NCBI RefSeq assembly: GCF_900215535.1
Contig: NZ_OCND01000001.1
Span: 124,001 to 188,000, forward strand
Length of the DNA stretch: 64,000 bases
Origin: Pseudoxanthomonas wuyuanensis
GTDB taxonomy: Bacteria; Pseudomonadota; Gammaproteobacteria; Xanthomonadales; Xanthomonadaceae
Direction of reading: 5' to 3'
Under the pieces are notes generated by a model. That model worked only from the letters and a program-made list of their open reading frames with translations, was not told the origin of the DNA and ran no database searches. Numbering within the stretch: the stretch's first letter is position 1; every line of letters starts with the position of its first letter. The position numbers and the translations under genes were made by a program. This document shows, one piece after another, positions 32,697-38,294 of this stretch.

Positions 32697-32812
32697 TCCT
32701 GTGGGAGCGGCTGTTTGCGGCCTGGTCAATAGGGCCGGCAGGGCGAGCGGCTTGCGGCCGGCCGTGCCAACCGTCCATCGCGACTCACGCCGCTCCCGCG
32801 CCATCGGCACTG
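32697..32812. repeat. REP-type inverted repeat supplying the Mur ligase stop codon
   Basis: A unit beginning CCTGTGGGAGCGGC (from 32697) is matched in inverse by CGACTCACGCCGCTCCCGCG (near 32792-32811). The intervening part is GC-rich. The same core family recurs at 45186-45386 and 58272-58297. The stop codon of the Mur ligase gene (32785-32787) lies inside the unit. It probably folds into a hairpin in both transcripts and may act as a bidirectional terminator. Confidence 0.6.
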
Positions 32813-35130
32813 GGCAGCGGGTCGCCGGCCTGCCAGCCGATGGCCTGCATCCGGTCCAGCAAGGCCGTGACCCGGTCGCGCGCATCCATCTCGTGGATCG
32901 GCAGCACCAGCAGATCGCCGTCCCTGGCCCAGGCCAGTGGGATGCGGGCGGCTTCCACTTCGTCCAGGCAGGTGGCAATGGCGGCATCGGCCACGCCGTC
33001 GGCCAGCAACTGCGCGCGCATGATCGCCGCCACCTCGCCGGCGGCGCGGCCGCGTTCGTAGCCGGCGATGTCCTTCAGCACCACCTGCTCCGGCCTGGCG
33101 CTGGCGGCAACCGACGCCACCGCGCGCAGGTCGGCGTCCTCGCGATTGCCGGCATGTCCCAGCATGATGGCCATCCGGCCCGGCCGTCCCGATGCATCCA
33201 CCGCGCGCAGCAATCCGCGCAGGCCGTCGGGGTTGTGCGCGTAGTCGACATACACCTGCAGCGCGCCGAATCGCCAGTGCTGCAGCCGTCCGGGATTGTC
33301 CGCACCGCTTGCGCCGAACCGCATCAGCGTGGCGGCCAGGGTGCCCGGTGCGATTCCCAGCGCGTAACCGGCCAGTGCGGCGGCGGCGATGTTGGCGATG
33401 TTGTAGCCGGCGCGTCCGCCCAGGGCTATCGGCATGGCGGCCGCTTGGCCCAGCGCGAAGGTGCTGCCATTGGCATGCAGGCAAAGCGTTCCATCGCGTA
33501 CGCCGCAGGCGGCGCCGCCGCTGTCGCGCTGCGAGCGCAGCAGCGGATGGTCGAAATCCAGCGCAAACCAGCCGATGGGGCAGGCCAGCGTTGGCGCCTG
33601 TTCGCGCAACACCGCGTCATCGGCGTTGAGCACCAGCAGTCCGCCGGCATCAATGGCGCGTGCCACGGTCAGCTTGACCCGGGCCAGGTCCTGCAGGGTA
33701 TGCACGCCGTATTCGCCGAAATGATCGACCGCGATATTGGTCACCACCGCCACATTGGCGCGGCATACCGCCAGCCCGCGCCGCAGCAGTCCGCCGCGCG
33801 CGGTTTCCAGTACCGCCGCCTGCGCCTGCGGATGGCGCAACGCGGTGCGCGCGCCGGTGGGGCCGGAAAAATCCCCGGCTTCCAGCGGCTGGCCTTCGAA
33901 ATACACCCCATCGGTGCAGCTATGCGCGGTGCGCCAGCCATGCGCCCGCGCCATTGCCGCAAGCAGCCGCACGGTGGTGGTCTTGCCATTGGAGCCGGTG
34001 ACCAGCGCGGTGGGAATATCGTGCAGATCGCGCCATGGCACCGATGACGGCGCAGGAAGACCGTCGATGAACCAGCTGCGGCTGCCGACGCCTTCGCCGA
34101 GCGAGAGCTCGTCGTCGTCGGCAAGGAAGGCGACCTGATGCGTCGCGGCCTGTTGCTGCAATGCGATCAGTTGCGGCAGCGCTTCCGCTGCGGCGGCCAG
34201 GCGCAGCGTGCGCAGGGCGCAGTCGGTATCCCACACCGCGGCGTGGCCAGGGGCGTGGTAGAGCATTTGTTCTTCCCTTCTCCCTTTGGGAGAAGGTGCC
34301 CAAACTGCGGATGAGGGAATGGGCTCTCCGGTTGCAGCATCGCCCTTCACAAGCGCAAGCACCCGATGGGAAATGTCGAACAGAACATCTTCCGTACGAG
34401 CGAGTACATCATGATTCCAGTACCGCAGCGTCATGACGCCCTGGCTGGCGACGAAAGCGTCGCGCTTGGCGTCGTTCACCAGTGGCTGCGGTTCGTTGTG
34501 CTGTCCGCCATCCAGTTCTATCGCTAGTTTCAACTCATGGCAGTAGAAATCGAGAACATACGGTCCCAGCGATTCTTGACGGCAGAATTTCTGGTCATGC
34601 AGGCGGCGGTCGCGCAGGAAGGACCAGAGGAGTTGTTCGGGTTGGGTGGAGTTCTCTCTCAGTTGGCGGATGAAATCTTTGGTTTCTTGGTCGAAAGGCA
34701 GCTTCTTTCGGAAAGTTGCGTTGGAGCTTTGGGCTTCCTCCCTCATCCGGCCTTCGGCCACCTTCTCCCAGTGGGAGAAGGGAACAACAGACGCACTTAT
34801 CTCTCCTGCGCTGACTTGAGAATCAGGGTTGGCATCAGAATCCAGGCTCGCCGACCACCATGCCCATTCGTTGACTTCGGTGGCGGTGTACAGCTGATCC
34901 AGCGGTGCGGCGAAGGCCAGCGAGGCGCCGCTGGCGTGTCGGCGGATGACGGTGTCGGTCTCCGGCCAGCCCAGCGCCGCCCGAACGGCCGCGATATTGG
35001 CCTGCCAGCGGGCGAGCGCATCGTCGCCGAACGCCAGTCCGCGCGCGGTCTCCAGCGCCGCGCCGGTGCCGGCGAAATAGACGTTGCAGCCGGTCAGCCG
35101 GCGCGAGTCGGTAAAGGGTTCCGGCGCCAC
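32785..35130 (-). CDS. CphA-related Mur ligase interrupted in frame by a DUF559 nuclease module
   Basis: 781 residues, GTG start, 6 bp downstream of cphA. Residues 1-95 and about 289-781 form a Mur-ligase-family protein like the C-terminal half of cyanophycin synthetase: P-loop ALVTGSNGKTTTVRLLAAMA (near 375-393), TDGVYFEGQPLEAGDFSGPT, ETARGGLLRRGLAV, GYNIANIAAAALAGYAL, VDYAHNPDGL. Such genes sit beside cphA in several Proteobacteria. Residues about 96-288 are foreign: a DUF559 domain (FIRQLRENSTQPEQLLWSFL ... VLDFYCHELKLAIELDGGQH), a PD-(D/E)XK fold related to VSR endonucleases. Both of its ends are encoded by inverted palindromic repeats. The whole reads as one uninterrupted frame. Whether the ligase still folds, and whether the nuclease is active, is unknown. 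No intein splicing residues are visible. Confidence 0.85.
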   Translation of the reverse strand: MAPEPFTDSRRLTGCNVYFAGTGAALETARGLAFGDDALARWQANIAAVRAALGWPETDTVIRRHASGASLAFAAPLDQLYTATEVNEWAWWSASLDSDANPDSQVSAGEISASVVPFSHWEKVAEGRMREEAQSSNATFRKKLPFDQETKDFIRQLRENSTQPEQLLWSFLRDRRLHDQKFCRQESLGPYVLDFYCHELKLAIELDGGQHNEPQPLVNDAKRDAFVASQGVMTLRYWNHDVLARTEDVLFDISHRVLALVKGDAATGEPIPSSAVWAPSPKGRREEQMLYHAPGHAAVWDTDCALRTLRLAAAAEALPQLIALQQQAATHQVAFLADDDELSLGEGVGSRSWFIDGLPAPSSVPWRDLHDIPTALVTGSNGKTTTVRLLAAMARAHGWRTAHSCTDGVYFEGQPLEAGDFSGPTGARTALRHPQAQAAVLETARGGLLRRGLAVCRANVAVVTNIAVDHFGEYGVHTLQDLARVKLTVARAIDAGGLLVLNADDAVLREQAPTLACPIGWFALDFDHPLLRSQRDSGGAACGVRDGTLCLHANGSTFALGQAAAMPIALGGRAGYNIANIAAAALAGYALGIAPGTLAATLMRFGASGADNPGRLQHWRFGALQVYVDYAHNPDGLRGLLRAVDASGRPGRMAIMLGHAGNREDADLRAVASVAASARPEQVVLKDIAGYERGRAAGEVAAIMRAQLLADGVADAAIATCLDEVEAARIPLAWARDGDLLVLPIHEMDARDRVTALLDRMQAIGWQAGDPLPSADGAGAA
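34273..34783 (-). mobile_element. REP-flanked DUF559 (VSR-like nuclease) insertion
   Basis: About 511 bp bounded by inverted repeats at 34273-34318 and 34739-34783. Each arm contains its own palindrome (CCTTCTCCC, two bases, GGGAGAAGG) plus CTCATCCG and ACCTTCTCCC boxes. Aligned as reverse complements the arms agree over most of about 45 bp, differing mainly in a central variable patch. The interior encodes the DUF559 domain on the minus strand, in the same frame as the host gene, and has clearly lower G+C than the surrounding Mur ligase. A possible independent start is ATG 34746 (MREEAQSSN), inside the right-hand repeat. No transposase is encoded, and I see no target-site duplication. At protein level the extra sequence is about 34266-34845. 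Confidence 0.75.
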
Positions 35131-35136
35131 GGCGGT

Positions 35137-37926
35137 TCAGTCGCTGGCTTCGCGTTCGAACACCAGGCCGCGCTCGTCGCGGATCACGCCCTCCAGATTG
35201 TTCAGCGTGGCCTCGTCCAGCAGCGAGTGGGCGACCGGGATTTCGGTCCTGGGCAGGGGGCTGGGCGCTTCGCCGGCCGGCTGGAACTTGATGATCTGTT
35301 TCCAGGTGCGGGTCAGCGCGTCGGCGAACACCATCAGCAGGTCTCCCGGCTGGCCCATCCGCAACGCGGCATCGACGGCCTGCTGTTCGTCCGGAATGAC
35401 GGTGATGGCGTCTTCACCGATCCCGCCGGCCTGCAGGGCCTTGGCGATGATGCGCGGCACCTCGTCGCCGTCGCGGCCGCGCAGCGCATCGTCGCGGCGC
35501 ACCACATAGTGGTCGAATTTGCCTGCTACCGCATCGGCGATCGCACGCAGATCGTCGTCGCGGCGGTCGCCGGGACCGGCGACCACCACGATGCGACGGC
35601 CGCTCACGTCCAGCCGCTGCGCCAGATCCGCCATCATGCCTACCGCATGCGCATTGTGCGCGTAGTCCATCAGCACCTTGAACGGGTGCTCGCCGAACAC
35701 GTTCATCCGCCCCGGCGCCTGGAAGAACGTGGTGTCGAACGTGCGCAGGCCCTGCCGGATCGCGTCGAGCTTGATGCCCAGCGAGAACGCGATAGACGCG
35801 GCGAACATCGCGTTCTGCACGTTGTGCAGGGCGCGGCCTTCCATCGTGGCCGGGATCAGGTGGGTCCACATCAGCGGGATATGGCTGCCCTTGTCGTACA
35901 GCGTGATCATGTGGCCGTTGATGCCGGCTTCCAGCGCGCAGGCGCGGCCGCCGGCGCGGATGTGCTCGCGCACCAGCCCGTGCGAGGGGTTCATCGTCAC
36001 ATAGCAGATGGTCCGGGCATCGGTATAGGCCGACATCTTCAGCACATTGCCGTCATCGGCGTTGAGCACGGCGCAATCGCGCGCCACTTCCACCACGATG
36101 CGCTTGATCTCGGCCAGTTGCTCCAGCGTGTCGATGCCTTTCAGGCCCAGGTGGTCGGCCTGCACGTTCAGGACCGCGCCGACGTTGACCTCCGGTACGC
36201 CCATGCCGCTGCGCAGCAGGCCGCCGCGCGCGGTTTCCAGCACGGCGATGTCGATCTGCGGATCGCTGAGCACCATCCGCGCCGACACCGGCCCGGTCAT
36301 GTCGCCTTCCACCGTGCGCTGGCCGTCGATATAGACCCCGTCGGTGGTGGTCAGCCCCGGGGTGTAGCCGGCCATCTTGGTGATATGCGCCAGCATCCGC
36401 GCGGTGGTGGTCTTGCCGTTGGTGCCGGTGACGGCGGCAATCGGCACCCGCGACGGCGTGCCCGGCGGGAACAGCATGTCGATGACCGGGCCGGCGGCAT
36501 CGCGCGGCGTGCCTTCGCTGGGCGCCACATGCATGCGGAAGCCGGGCGCGGCGTTGACTTCGCAGATGCCGCCGCCGATGGCCTTGTAGCTTTCGGCGAT
36601 ATTGGTGGAAATGAAATCGACCCCGCCCACGTCCAGGCCGATCGCGCGCACCGCGCGCACGGCCATGTCGCGGTTGTCGGGGTGGATGATGTCGGTGACG
36701 TCGGTGGCGGTACCGCCGGTGGACAGGTTGGCGGTCGAGCGCAGGTAGACCACTTCGCCTTCGGCCGGCACCGAGAAGTGGTTGTAGCCGACGCGTTCGA
36801 GCATCAGATCCGCCTGCGCATCCAGTTCCAGCCGGGTCAGCACTTTTTCGTGACCCACGCCGCGGCGCGGGTCCGAGTTGACGATGTCGACCAGTTCGGC
36901 GATGTCGTGCCTGCCGTCGCCGATCACATGGCCGGGCGTGCGGCGGGTGGCGGCGACCAGTTCGCCGTTGACGACCAACAGCCGGTGATCGTCGCCGCCA
37001 ACGAAATTTTCGACGATGACCGAGCGCGAATGCTCGCGTGCGGCCGCGAAGGCTTCGCGGATTTCGTCGTCGCCGCTGATGTTGATGGTGATGCCGCGGC
37101 CATGGTTGCCGTTGTAGGGTTTCAGCACCACCGGGCCGCCGAGCCGCTTGGCTGCGCGCAGCGCGCCGGTGGCATCGGTGACCAGTTCCTGGCGCGGTAC
37201 CGGCAGGCCCAGCGAGGCGAGGATCTTGTTGGTTTCCTCCTTGTCGCTGGCCAGTTCCACCGCGATGTGCGGCGTCTTGCCGGTGATCGTGGCCTGGATG
37301 CGCTGCTGGTATTTGCCGTGGCCGAACTGCACCAGCGACTGGTTGTTGAGGCGGAACCAGGGGATGTTGCGCTCTTCGGCCGCGCGCACCAGCGAGGCGG
37401 TCGATGGCCCCAGTGCGCGCCGCTGCGCGTAGCGGATGAAATCGTCGCGCGCGCTTTCCCAGTCCCAGTCCTCGGGCACGCTGCCCTTGGGCCGCAGTTC
37501 GACCGGCAGCAGCGAGGCCAGCAGCTTCAGCGCCAGTTCGCCGGCGGCGATGCCTTCTTCCTTCTGCGCGTATTCGTAGACCACCGAATAGACGCCGGGC
37601 CGGTCCGAACCGATGCTGCGGGTACGGCCGAAGCTGACATCTTCGCCGGCGACGTTCTGCAGTTCGATGGCGACGTGTTCCAGCACATGCCCCAGCCAGG
37701 TGCCTTCGTCCTCGCGCATGCGGCGGATGAAGCCGCCGGGTTCGCGGTAGGAACAGCCGTGCTCGGCCAGGCCGGGCAGGGCGGCGACCAGGCCGTCGAC
37801 GAAAGCCGCGCCGAGCCTGCCGGTGGGCCAGGCTTCCAGCGCCTGCAGGTCCAGTTCCAGGCGGATGACCGGGAAGTGGGCGTACTGGGAGGGGCCGACG
37901 TAGACCGAGCGTTCCAGGATGCGCAT
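35137..37926 (-). CDS. cphA: Cyanophycin synthetase
   Basis: 929 residues. Makes cyanophycin-like polymer, multi-L-arginyl-poly-aspartate, by ATP-dependent addition of Asp and Arg. The order is canonical: an N-terminal domain (ERSVYVGPSQYAHFPVIRLE), an ATP-grasp domain with GGPVVLKPYNGNHGRGI, ENFVGGDDHRLLVV and GICEVNAAPGFRMH, then a Mur-ligase domain with P-loop VTGTNGKTTTARML, LTTTDGVYIDGQRT, ETARGGLLRSGMG and MDYAHNAHAVGMM. Start ATG 37926 is preceded by GAGG at suitable spacing. It is followed 6 bp later by the Mur ligase gene and preceded by cyanophycinase in the same direction, so this is a storage-polymer locus for nitrogen and carbon. Confidence 0.95.
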   Translation of the reverse strand: MRILERSVYVGPSQYAHFPVIRLELDLQALEAWPTGRLGAAFVDGLVAALPGLAEHGCSYREPGGFIRRMREDEGTWLGHVLEHVAIELQNVAGEDVSFGRTRSIGSDRPGVYSVVYEYAQKEEGIAAGELALKLLASLLPVELRPKGSVPEDWDWESARDDFIRYAQRRALGPSTASLVRAAEERNIPWFRLNNQSLVQFGHGKYQQRIQATITGKTPHIAVELASDKEETNKILASLGLPVPRQELVTDATGALRAAKRLGGPVVLKPYNGNHGRGITINISGDDEIREAFAAAREHSRSVIVENFVGGDDHRLLVVNGELVAATRRTPGHVIGDGRHDIAELVDIVNSDPRRGVGHEKVLTRLELDAQADLMLERVGYNHFSVPAEGEVVYLRSTANLSTGGTATDVTDIIHPDNRDMAVRAVRAIGLDVGGVDFISTNIAESYKAIGGGICEVNAAPGFRMHVAPSEGTPRDAAGPVIDMLFPPGTPSRVPIAAVTGTNGKTTTARMLAHITKMAGYTPGLTTTDGVYIDGQRTVEGDMTGPVSARMVLSDPQIDIAVLETARGGLLRSGMGVPEVNVGAVLNVQADHLGLKGIDTLEQLAEIKRIVVEVARDCAVLNADDGNVLKMSAYTDARTICYVTMNPSHGLVREHIRAGGRACALEAGINGHMITLYDKGSHIPLMWTHLIPATMEGRALHNVQNAMFAASIAFSLGIKLDAIRQGLRTFDTTFFQAPGRMNVFGEHPFKVLMDYAHNAHAVGMMADLAQRLDVSGRRIVVVAGPGDRRDDDLRAIADAVAGKFDHYVVRRDDALRGRDGDEVPRIIAKALQAGGIGEDAITVIPDEQQAVDAALRMGQPGDLLMVFADALTRTWKQIIKFQPAGEAPSPLPRTEIPVAHSLLDEATLNNLEGVIRDERGLVFEREASD

Positions 37927-38294
37927 GCTTTGCCTCTGTGTTGTGTTGGTCGGCCCGGCGGTTGCCGGAATGGGATTTGCCGGTTTCTTTGGCGACAGCC
38001 AAAGGCCAAAGCTTTCGCGCTGCGCGCGAGTTCCTTTTGTTACGGCAAAAGGAACCAAAACCATTGCGCCCGACAGCCGCCGCCTGCGGCGGTTCCCTGC
38101 GCTTCTCGCGACCAGCGGGCCGGCCCGGACTCGGGCCTTGCTCCCACTGGCCGCTGCGATGCTCGGCGGCCTTTAGGGCTGGGTGAAGCTGGTACGGCAA
38201 CAGCAACAACAACAGCAACAACAAAAAAACAACCGCAACCACAACCACCTAGAAAGCCATGGTCATGGCCCTGGGTGAAGGTGTGGCCAATGCA
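37927..38294. repeat. cphB-cphA gap with composite palindromic element and CAACAG tract
   Basis: No gene. From about 37980 it holds nested hairpins: TTCTTTGGCGACAGCCAAAG, CTTTCGCGCTGCGCGCGAG, TTCCTTTTGTTACGGCAAAA (followed by GGAA) and CCGCCGCCTGCGGCGG. Then comes a run of CAACAG/CAACAA units near 38196-38230. Read on the minus strand the order (GTTGCTGTT tract, GC-rich part, CTTTTGxxAC hairpin, GCGCGCAGCGCGAAAG) parallels the two copies between thrB and thrC. It separates cphB from cphA and could end or weaken the upstream transcript. Confidence 0.6.

Follow-up and report, generated by a model that had tools for sequence, protein, structure and literature searches.

A DUF559 nuclease between inverted REP hairpins lies in frame within a Mur ligase gene of Pseudoxanthomonas wuyuanensis, and related cassettes occur in many unrelated genes

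A repeat-bordered nuclease domain within a Mur ligase gene

The stretch of DNA analysed here (64,000 nucleotides of Pseudoxanthomonas wuyuanensis, contig NZ_OCND01000001.1, positions 124,001 to 188,000; hereafter the window) contains a CphA-like Mur ligase gene with an in-frame insert, namely a nuclease domain of the DUF559 family between two inverted repetitive extragenic palindromic (REP) hairpins. The open reading frame (ORF), located at 32785..35130 on the minus strand, encodes 781 amino acids and is open across both borders of the insert. Its N-terminal host part (34842..35130) ends at about NEWAWW, the conserved insertion site, and its C-terminal host part (32785..34262), comprising the middle and C-terminal domains of the Mur ligase, restarts near YHAPGHAA. 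A Pfam scan placed PF04480 (DUF559) at residues 150-255 of the ORF (E 1e-29), followed by Mur_ligase_M and Mur_ligase_C; with 103 bits against a curated cut-off of 20.6, the domain belongs to PF04480. This Vsr-like PD-(D/E)XK nuclease domain (34366..34683, minus strand), assigned by the Pfam scan and a fold model, is bordered on the same strand by a 5' REP arm (34739..34797), which in sense-strand view consists of the hairpin CCTTCTCCCACTGGGAGAAGG (34761-34781) and the inward tail TGGCCGAAGGCCGGATGAGGG and is translated as PFSHWEKVAEGRMR, and by a 3' REP arm (34260..34318), which consists of a hairpin (34276-34296) and a tail and is translated as APSPKGRREEQ.

Palindromes of the form CCTTCTCCCnnnGGGAGAAGG occur in the window at 34276-34296 and 34761-34781 and, allowing at most 3 mismatches, nowhere else; the mean for shuffled sequences was 0.03, and 1 of 100 shuffles also gave two. 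The larger inverted arms (34260-34318 and 34739-34797) measure 59 nt, are 81% complementary and are spaced by 420 nt. A preliminary description of this locus had proposed that a DUF559 unit flanked by REP-like palindromes had become inserted into a coding region with the frame kept, splitting the Mur ligase. The ORF, Pfam and arm analyses bear this out, and the coordinates it gave for the insert agree with ours. It had also pointed to a lower G+C content (measured at 0.563 for 34276-34781, against values of 0.719 and 0.705 for the host parts and 0.662 for the window as a whole) and to the translation of the repeats, which do read as PFSHWEKVAEGRM and WAPSPKGRREEQ. In the window gene, approximately 19 codons lie between NEWAWW and the REP; these are missing in nine other aligned fused genes. 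A GAAGG stretch is found upstream of an internal ATG (34746), a candidate start for a separately translated nuclease, and a cyanophycin-synthetase gene (35137-38064) precedes the Mur ORF.

The earlier observation that intein signs are lacking was likewise confirmed, as scans of the window ORF found no member of the HINT splicing family, with the junction residues judged by eye only. There was no Rfam intron match at E 0.1 within 33500-35700, no GTAG tag within the two arms, and no HUH/Y1 transposase domain, the Pfam scan of the whole ORF giving DUF559 and Mur domains only. Readings of the unit as an intein, an intron or an HUH transposon were rejected on the lack of a HINT domain, of an Rfam match and of a Y1 domain, and on the different repeats found at Y1 loci (see below).

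The genome that contains the window (G000) carries 22 dispersed palindromes of the window type (at most 2 mismatches), so that the unit consists of an enzyme gene flanked by dispersed, inverted REPs. Four REPIN-like hairpin pairs with a spacing of 113-115 bp were also observed in this genome (L007, L012, L014 and L017, on contigs C19, C20 and C30); their hairpin is identical to that of the nuclease unit, and their inward tails are similar.

As for the enzyme itself, 16 positions were invariant in 48 DUF559 sequences, among them E26, D55, E66, D68, H72 and D81. The model of the domain (predicted local distance difference test, pLDDT, 89) was most similar to the solved fold 3hrl, an endonuclease-like gonococcal protein that was also matched by sequence, then to I-Bth0305I and, more weakly, to Vsr. 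The predicted fold of the full-length fused protein was poor (mean pLDDT 62.6) and was not used as evidence. According to the available part of one report, the DUF559 protein VsrA is responsible for an SOS response in Caulobacter cells without a methyltransferase (PMC12907096), which fits the view that DUF559 may be an active nuclease. The unit had previously been labelled transposase-less; the nuclease itself is a candidate mobility enzyme.

Inverted repeats around DUF559 genes

A search for DUF559 in 38 genomes of the genus gave 85 matches in 34 genomes, of which 84 had enough flanking sequence (L055 was dropped for its short flank). The threshold score for an inverted repeat was 34, set from a top shuffle score of 33, and the control consisted of placements at the same loci. 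A flanking inverted repeat was found at 66 of the 84 loci, compared with 3 of 449 control placements; a first pass, in which 72 of the 85 loci were oriented by motif and 58 of 71 reached the threshold, was superseded by one that redid all 85. A wider scan of genome contigs covered the best 80 of 144 relatives of the window nuclease, which are not a random DUF559 sample. After two loci with short flanks had been dropped (L261 and L285), 58 of 78 had a flanking inverted repeat, compared with 3 of 1262 control placements; three of the genes (L221-L223) are the same as three genus loci and hence enter both counts. The records in the wide scan were named as Proteobacteria, Planctomycetota, Nitrospira, Chloroflexi and others. 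Chance repeats were rejected by the shuffle and same-locus controls.

Many of the arms are of the REP type, with a hairpin and an inward tail, and they fall into several sequence families. Thus, the expectation that other DUF559 genes would have flanking repeats held for most loci of the genus, but these belong to several REP families rather than one. The 66 flanked genus loci represent 13 genomic contexts, the largest of which includes 19 genomes, indicating that most of the units were inherited and are mostly old; RAYT (REP-associated tyrosine transposase) genes are likewise mostly inherited. Matches on plasmids and phages were all below 60% identity, and three records listed as plasmids (NZ_OL790696.1, NZ_CP119142.1 and CP090106.1) are 2.2-4.8 Mb long and chromosome-like in size.

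The number of repeat copies also differs between carriers and non-carriers. Copies of CCCCTCTCCCnnnGGGAGAGGGG (at most 1 mismatch) number 3-44 in the 19 genomes with a DUF559 gene of context 1, and the 19 others have 0-8 (p 2e-7 by Mann-Whitney test, or 7e-7 when two copies are subtracted to account for the repeats beside the gene itself); the grouping was post hoc, and the statistics ignore the kinship of the genomes. Among the non-carriers is G025, whose cut locus, L055, groups with the genes of context 1; leaving this genome out changes little. The window-type hairpin occurs in 18, 28, 51 and 43 copies in the four genomes of the genus that carry the Mur insert, compared with 0-72 in the others (p 0.005), a weaker link than that of the context-1 gene.

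These repeats were compared with those at Y1 transposase loci. A Y1 match is present in 35 of the 38 genomes, and 24 of the best 30 Y1 loci of the genus have inverted repeats that, by eye, are mostly GTAG-like or a GTGG variant, whereas a DUF559-type hairpin was found within 400-500 bp of none of the 30. The DUF559-associated repeats are therefore separate from those at the Y1/RAYT loci examined.

A set of GIY-YIG loci (L131-L160), meant as a negative control, failed as such, since 16 of the 30 genus loci were flanked by other repeats. In subgroups drawn by eye, the subfamily with VYILASxRNGTLYIGVTS had inverted repeats (CGTC-type REPs by eye) at 13 of 16 loci, the subfamily with FWVYMLECADGSYYVG had a different inverted repeat at 3 of 3, and a third type (mostly W..YL.EC) had a flanking repeat at 0 of 11.

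Distribution and age of the Mur insertion

The Mur query had some match in all 38 genomes of the genus and a true orthologue in 19 (58-73% identity, or the query itself). Four of these orthologues carry an in-frame insert at one site (G000, G004, G030 and G037), 12 are empty, providing the uninterrupted version sought in the preliminary description, and three have a linker of 25-26 residues. The linker of G010 corresponds to the whole left hairpin and the beginning of the tail and is a clear REP remnant, while that of G025 is degenerate and that of G015 doubtful. Six more genomes, not named Pseudoxanthomonas, have an insert at the identical site: Luteimonas panaciterrae, L. mephitis, a Lysobacter metagenome-assembled genome (MAG), two Proteobacteria MAGs and Chiayiivirga flava. 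Inverted repeats surround the segment in nine of the ten genomes that bear it; the sole exception is the Chiayiivirga insert (L229), in which the flank test of the wide scan found none. Together with the empty orthologues, this is not the pattern of a repeat-free DUF559 segment shared by all orthologues, which would have spoken against a mobile unit.

On the Mur tree, the fused genes have a patchy distribution: G000 pairs with the empty G005 and G030 with the remnant-bearing G010. The insert thus appears to be old, and either one old insertion followed by several losses or repeated homing would fit the data. The preliminary description had spoken of a unit that has landed in a coding region. 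With the same site occupied in ten genomes of several genera and the 66 flanked loci confined to 13 contexts, the unit has not just arrived, and a fresh hop into the Mur gene was rejected.

The ratio of nonsynonymous to synonymous substitution rates (dN/dS) among the five closest fused genes had a median of 0.11 for the nuclease (6 of 10 pairs usable, the others being saturated) and of 0.28 and 0.24 for the two host parts (10 of 10 pairs), from which the nuclease is judged to be under purifying selection. At codons encoding the same residue, the left REP was identical in 119 of 119 comparisons, and none of 639 other 14-codon segments was as high; the corresponding values were 417 of 816 for the nuclease and 257 of 459 and 2018 of 3397 for the host parts. 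This unmatched identity indicates that the left REP has been kept or renewed at the DNA level beyond what the peptide would need.

In-frame cassettes in other host genes

Related cassettes were found in many unrelated genes of other phyla, which extends the single-locus view taken at the outset. At 33 of the 80 loci of the wide scan, Mur genes included, at least 120 residues of open frame lie on both sides of the nuclease. The hosts identified by hidden Markov model scan include the aminoacyl-tRNA synthetases ValRS (valyl-, L231), LeuRS (leucyl-, L238) and MetRS (methionyl-tRNA synthetase, L247, L251 and L252), as well as MetH (L246, L269), HrpA (L237) and TlyA (L255). Further hosts are HsdM (L230, L232, L233, L259, L273), MmeI (L234, L068), N6/N4 methylases (L235, L236, L258), Eco57I/PglX-type or weaker methyltransferase matches (L239, L241, L243, L250, L254) and HsdS (L240, L245, L262, L265, L279). 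A glycogen debranching enzyme (L261) is cut by the contig end, and LipB (L242) carries a repeat-bordered DUF559 as a C-terminal extension. The host was matched on both sides of the nuclease in ValRS, LeuRS, MetRS (3), MetH (2), HrpA, one HsdM (L273) and MmeI (2), and on one side in the others. Two loci (L253 and L257) gave DUF559 alone at the limit used and are HsdS-like by eye; L249 is N6/N4 methylase-like by eye. In a DNA methylase gene (L236), two DUF559 stretches were observed within a single open frame. Scans of the fused ORFs found no HINT family member.

Within the genus set, the 85 loci include five internal insertions, four in Mur genes and one in MmeI, the short-ORF loci having been excluded from this check. 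At five other genus loci, DUF559 was observed in frame ahead of an EpmA-like (L002, L045, L061) or a TrmH-like protein (L034, L054), both named by eye, with inverted repeats flanking.

The LeuRS case gives the closest view of an insertion site. Residues 29-391 of L238 align to residues 21-383 of solved LeuRS chains and residues 550-1039 to 387-879, with the cassette between them. Relatives that are 91-95% identical upstream (L312-L315) have AAAADGPAPDLS or similar where L238 has AAAG, the cassette and RQAPDLS, and the host gained or lost at most a few bases at the site. This motif comparison covered 6 of 12 loci. Another LeuRS relative among these six (L311) has an unrelated, longer loop at approximately the position of the cassette, indicating that this loop of LeuRS tolerates length changes. 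The MetRS relatives did not exceed 52% identity with the query piece. An empty site was not recovered in Sinorhizobium, where the matches were dominated by an insertion sequence copy; the record is chromosome-like.

LeuRS, MetRS and such enzymes are essential. The LeuRS piece had a single match in its genome (G038), as did the MetRS piece (G039). Since the enzymes are essential and only one copy of each was found, the interrupted LeuRS and MetRS proteins probably work. L238 comes from a MAG that is possibly incomplete; the records of Stagnimonas, Tepidimonas and Ferriphaselus are not labelled as MAGs, however, so assembly error is unlikely as a general cause.

The REP ends themselves are suited to translation. 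The typed consensus of the common REP type is stop-free in five of six frames (three per end, sense strand) and is rich in Gly, Pro, Ser and Arg, and the window-type consensus is also stop-free in five of six. In the tree of DUF559 sequences, one clade (62 of 161) has all genes labelled as internal insertions, with the hosts intermingled; the 10 Mur-site genes form one clade (support 0.84), and the 3 MetRS-site genes group together. Several supports in this tree are low, and L261, which is a glycogen debranching enzyme, is mislabelled there as HsdM. Taken together, the topology resembles what would be expected if the nuclease had reached new hosts and had then been inherited in place in each of them.

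A proposed mechanism and its alternatives

We propose, with a probability of about 0.6, that the insert is a selfish, REP-bordered cassette in which a Vsr-like DUF559 gene lies between inward-facing inverted REP hairpins and which resides in genes where it is tolerated. The nuclease would act on its own REP or on the target site, and repair would then place copies of the cassette, or of short derivatives made up of REPs alone, elsewhere. Where a gene tolerates the orientation and phase of a copy that enters it, the REP ends of that copy would be translated as flexible linkers rich in Gly, Pro, Ser and Arg, and the nuclease would fold as a domain of its own, located in a loop or between two host domains, leaving the host protein functional. 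The nuclease would then be translated together with its host, and splicing would be unnecessary. We infer the action on REPs, the copying step, the tolerance by the host and selfishness over host benefit.

Several observations weigh against this proposal. Recent movement was not seen, the 66 flanked genus loci falling into only 13 contexts; the insertion ends could be placed only to within a few bases, and evidence of a target duplication was not obtained. Eighteen of the 84 genus loci and 20 of the 78 wide-scan loci are below the inverted-repeat threshold, as are the E. coli and gonococcal records inspected. The link between similarity of the nucleases and similarity of their repeats weakens when one locus per context is used (r 0.20-0.29, p 0.015-0.085, three draws). 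The DUF559 and Mur trees agree only roughly, and conservation of the right REP is no more than moderate (identical codons in 105 of 128 comparisons, a level reached by 16 of 639 segments). Furthermore, the window hairpin has 44 copies in G005, which has no Mur insert, its maximum of 72 in G010, which has a remnant, and 0 in G015.

An alternative hypothesis is site-specific homing without splicing, in which recognition of the empty host site by the nuclease leads to its being copied there in relatives, the REPs being secondary. The ten Mur-site nucleases form a single clade (0.84), their distribution over the Mur tree, at a single site, is patchy, as homing would produce, and the fold resembles the homing nuclease I-Bth0305I. 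However, related nucleases reside in many non-homologous hosts that are intermingled in the tree, so that spread was not only site-specific; vertical inheritance with losses fits the Mur data too, and homing leaves unexplained both the paired end repeats and the conservation of the left REP at the DNA level. We regard homing as an unlikely explanation of the whole. Somewhat more doubtful still is the idea that the hosts, for example restriction-modification proteins, recruited the nuclease as a useful domain and kept it for their own benefit. Many hosts are indeed DNA methyltransferases or specificity subunits, and the low dN/dS of the nuclease would be expected of a useful domain, but a Mur ligase, LeuRS, ValRS, MetRS or MetH would seem to have no evident need for a nuclease, the inserts are bordered by repeats, and relatives manage without them.

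That the REPs are moved by a RAYT-type HUH tyrosine transposase, with DUF559 merely trapped between two of them, is improbable. Y1 matches are present in 35 of the 38 genomes, and GTAG REPs are linked to RAYTs in the available part of a REP survey (PMC3733652); nevertheless, the DUF559-type hairpin was near 0 of the 30 best Y1 loci, 24 of which have other inverted repeats, and, if DUF559 had been caught by chance, repeats would not be expected around the majority of the copies examined in two sets. The possibility we rate lowest, and consider very improbable, is a free-standing repair or defence nuclease next to terminator hairpins, with the fusions as read-through accidents. Although many loci are short stand-alone ORFs and the hairpins could be terminators, the fused cases hold both hairpins within the open frame, the two arms match in sequence, tails included, and the PADLOC matches are weak and partial (DpdF and a type II enzyme).

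Returning to the proposed selfish cassette, its in-frame presence in many unrelated, even essential genes points to a kind of selfish element, so far unrecognised, that enters proteins and does not splice itself out. This would be a non-splicing way for a nuclease gene to live within essential proteins, and the cassettes would represent natural linkers for domain insertion. For annotation, it means that DUF559, where it occurs in proteins of this kind, is probably a guest domain.

Comparison with known systems

The nuclease domain of inteins and intron-borne homing endonucleases, like the DUF559 inserts, resides within conserved host genes and is patchy at one site; the DUF559 inserts differ in having neither a splicing domain (in the proteins scanned) nor an intron match (at the window locus) and in ending in REP linkers. 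Vsr and the Vsr-like homing nuclease I-Bth0305I are among the nearest solved folds after 3hrl, and we know of no Vsr-like homing nuclease that occurs as a REP-bordered in-frame cassette. Literature searches on DUF559, REPs, REPIN and GIY-YIG/CGTC, which covered subscription papers and preprints thinly, found no description of REP-bordered nuclease cassettes.

With regard to the repeats, the CGTC-tagged REPs, which include Neisseria dRS3 and Rickettsia RPE-4/6, are also palindromic and lie in part within coding genes, and they are reported not to be associated with transposase genes (PMC3733652, available part). No nuclease is reported with them in that part of the survey, and the DUF559 repeats have other stems and tails. 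The Rickettsia palindromic elements similarly place palindromic DNA within protein genes, but they are described there as short repeat insertions, with no mention of an encoded enzyme. As far as it is available, the survey concludes that one REP superfamily apparently lacks a dedicated transposase (PMC3733652). A second, unrelated repeat-associated enzyme family would supply both a definite candidate and a model of REP spread that can be tested.

The closest likeness is to the REPtrons, or RAYT units, in which, as here, one enzyme gene lies between inverted palindromes that have many genomic copies, some of them paired; the DUF559 units, too, mostly occupy old, inherited sites. The DUF559 unit differs in its enzyme, which is PD-(D/E)XK and Vsr-like rather than HUH/Y1, in its repeats, which are unlike those at the Y1 loci examined, and in that some units lie in frame within genes. 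We tentatively suggest, at slightly less than even odds, a new class of mobile element, a protein-invading nuclease cassette that does not splice, whose REP ends double as a DNA recognition or recombination element and as translated linkers and so allow the nuclease to take up residence, in frame, in essential genes across many bacterial phyla, with RAYT-REP, DUF559-REP and GIY-YIG-CGTC-REP as parallel versions of one strategy. The DUF559-REP units can be grouped with the repeat-plus-enzyme systems, and whether they form a class of their own depends on the mechanism.

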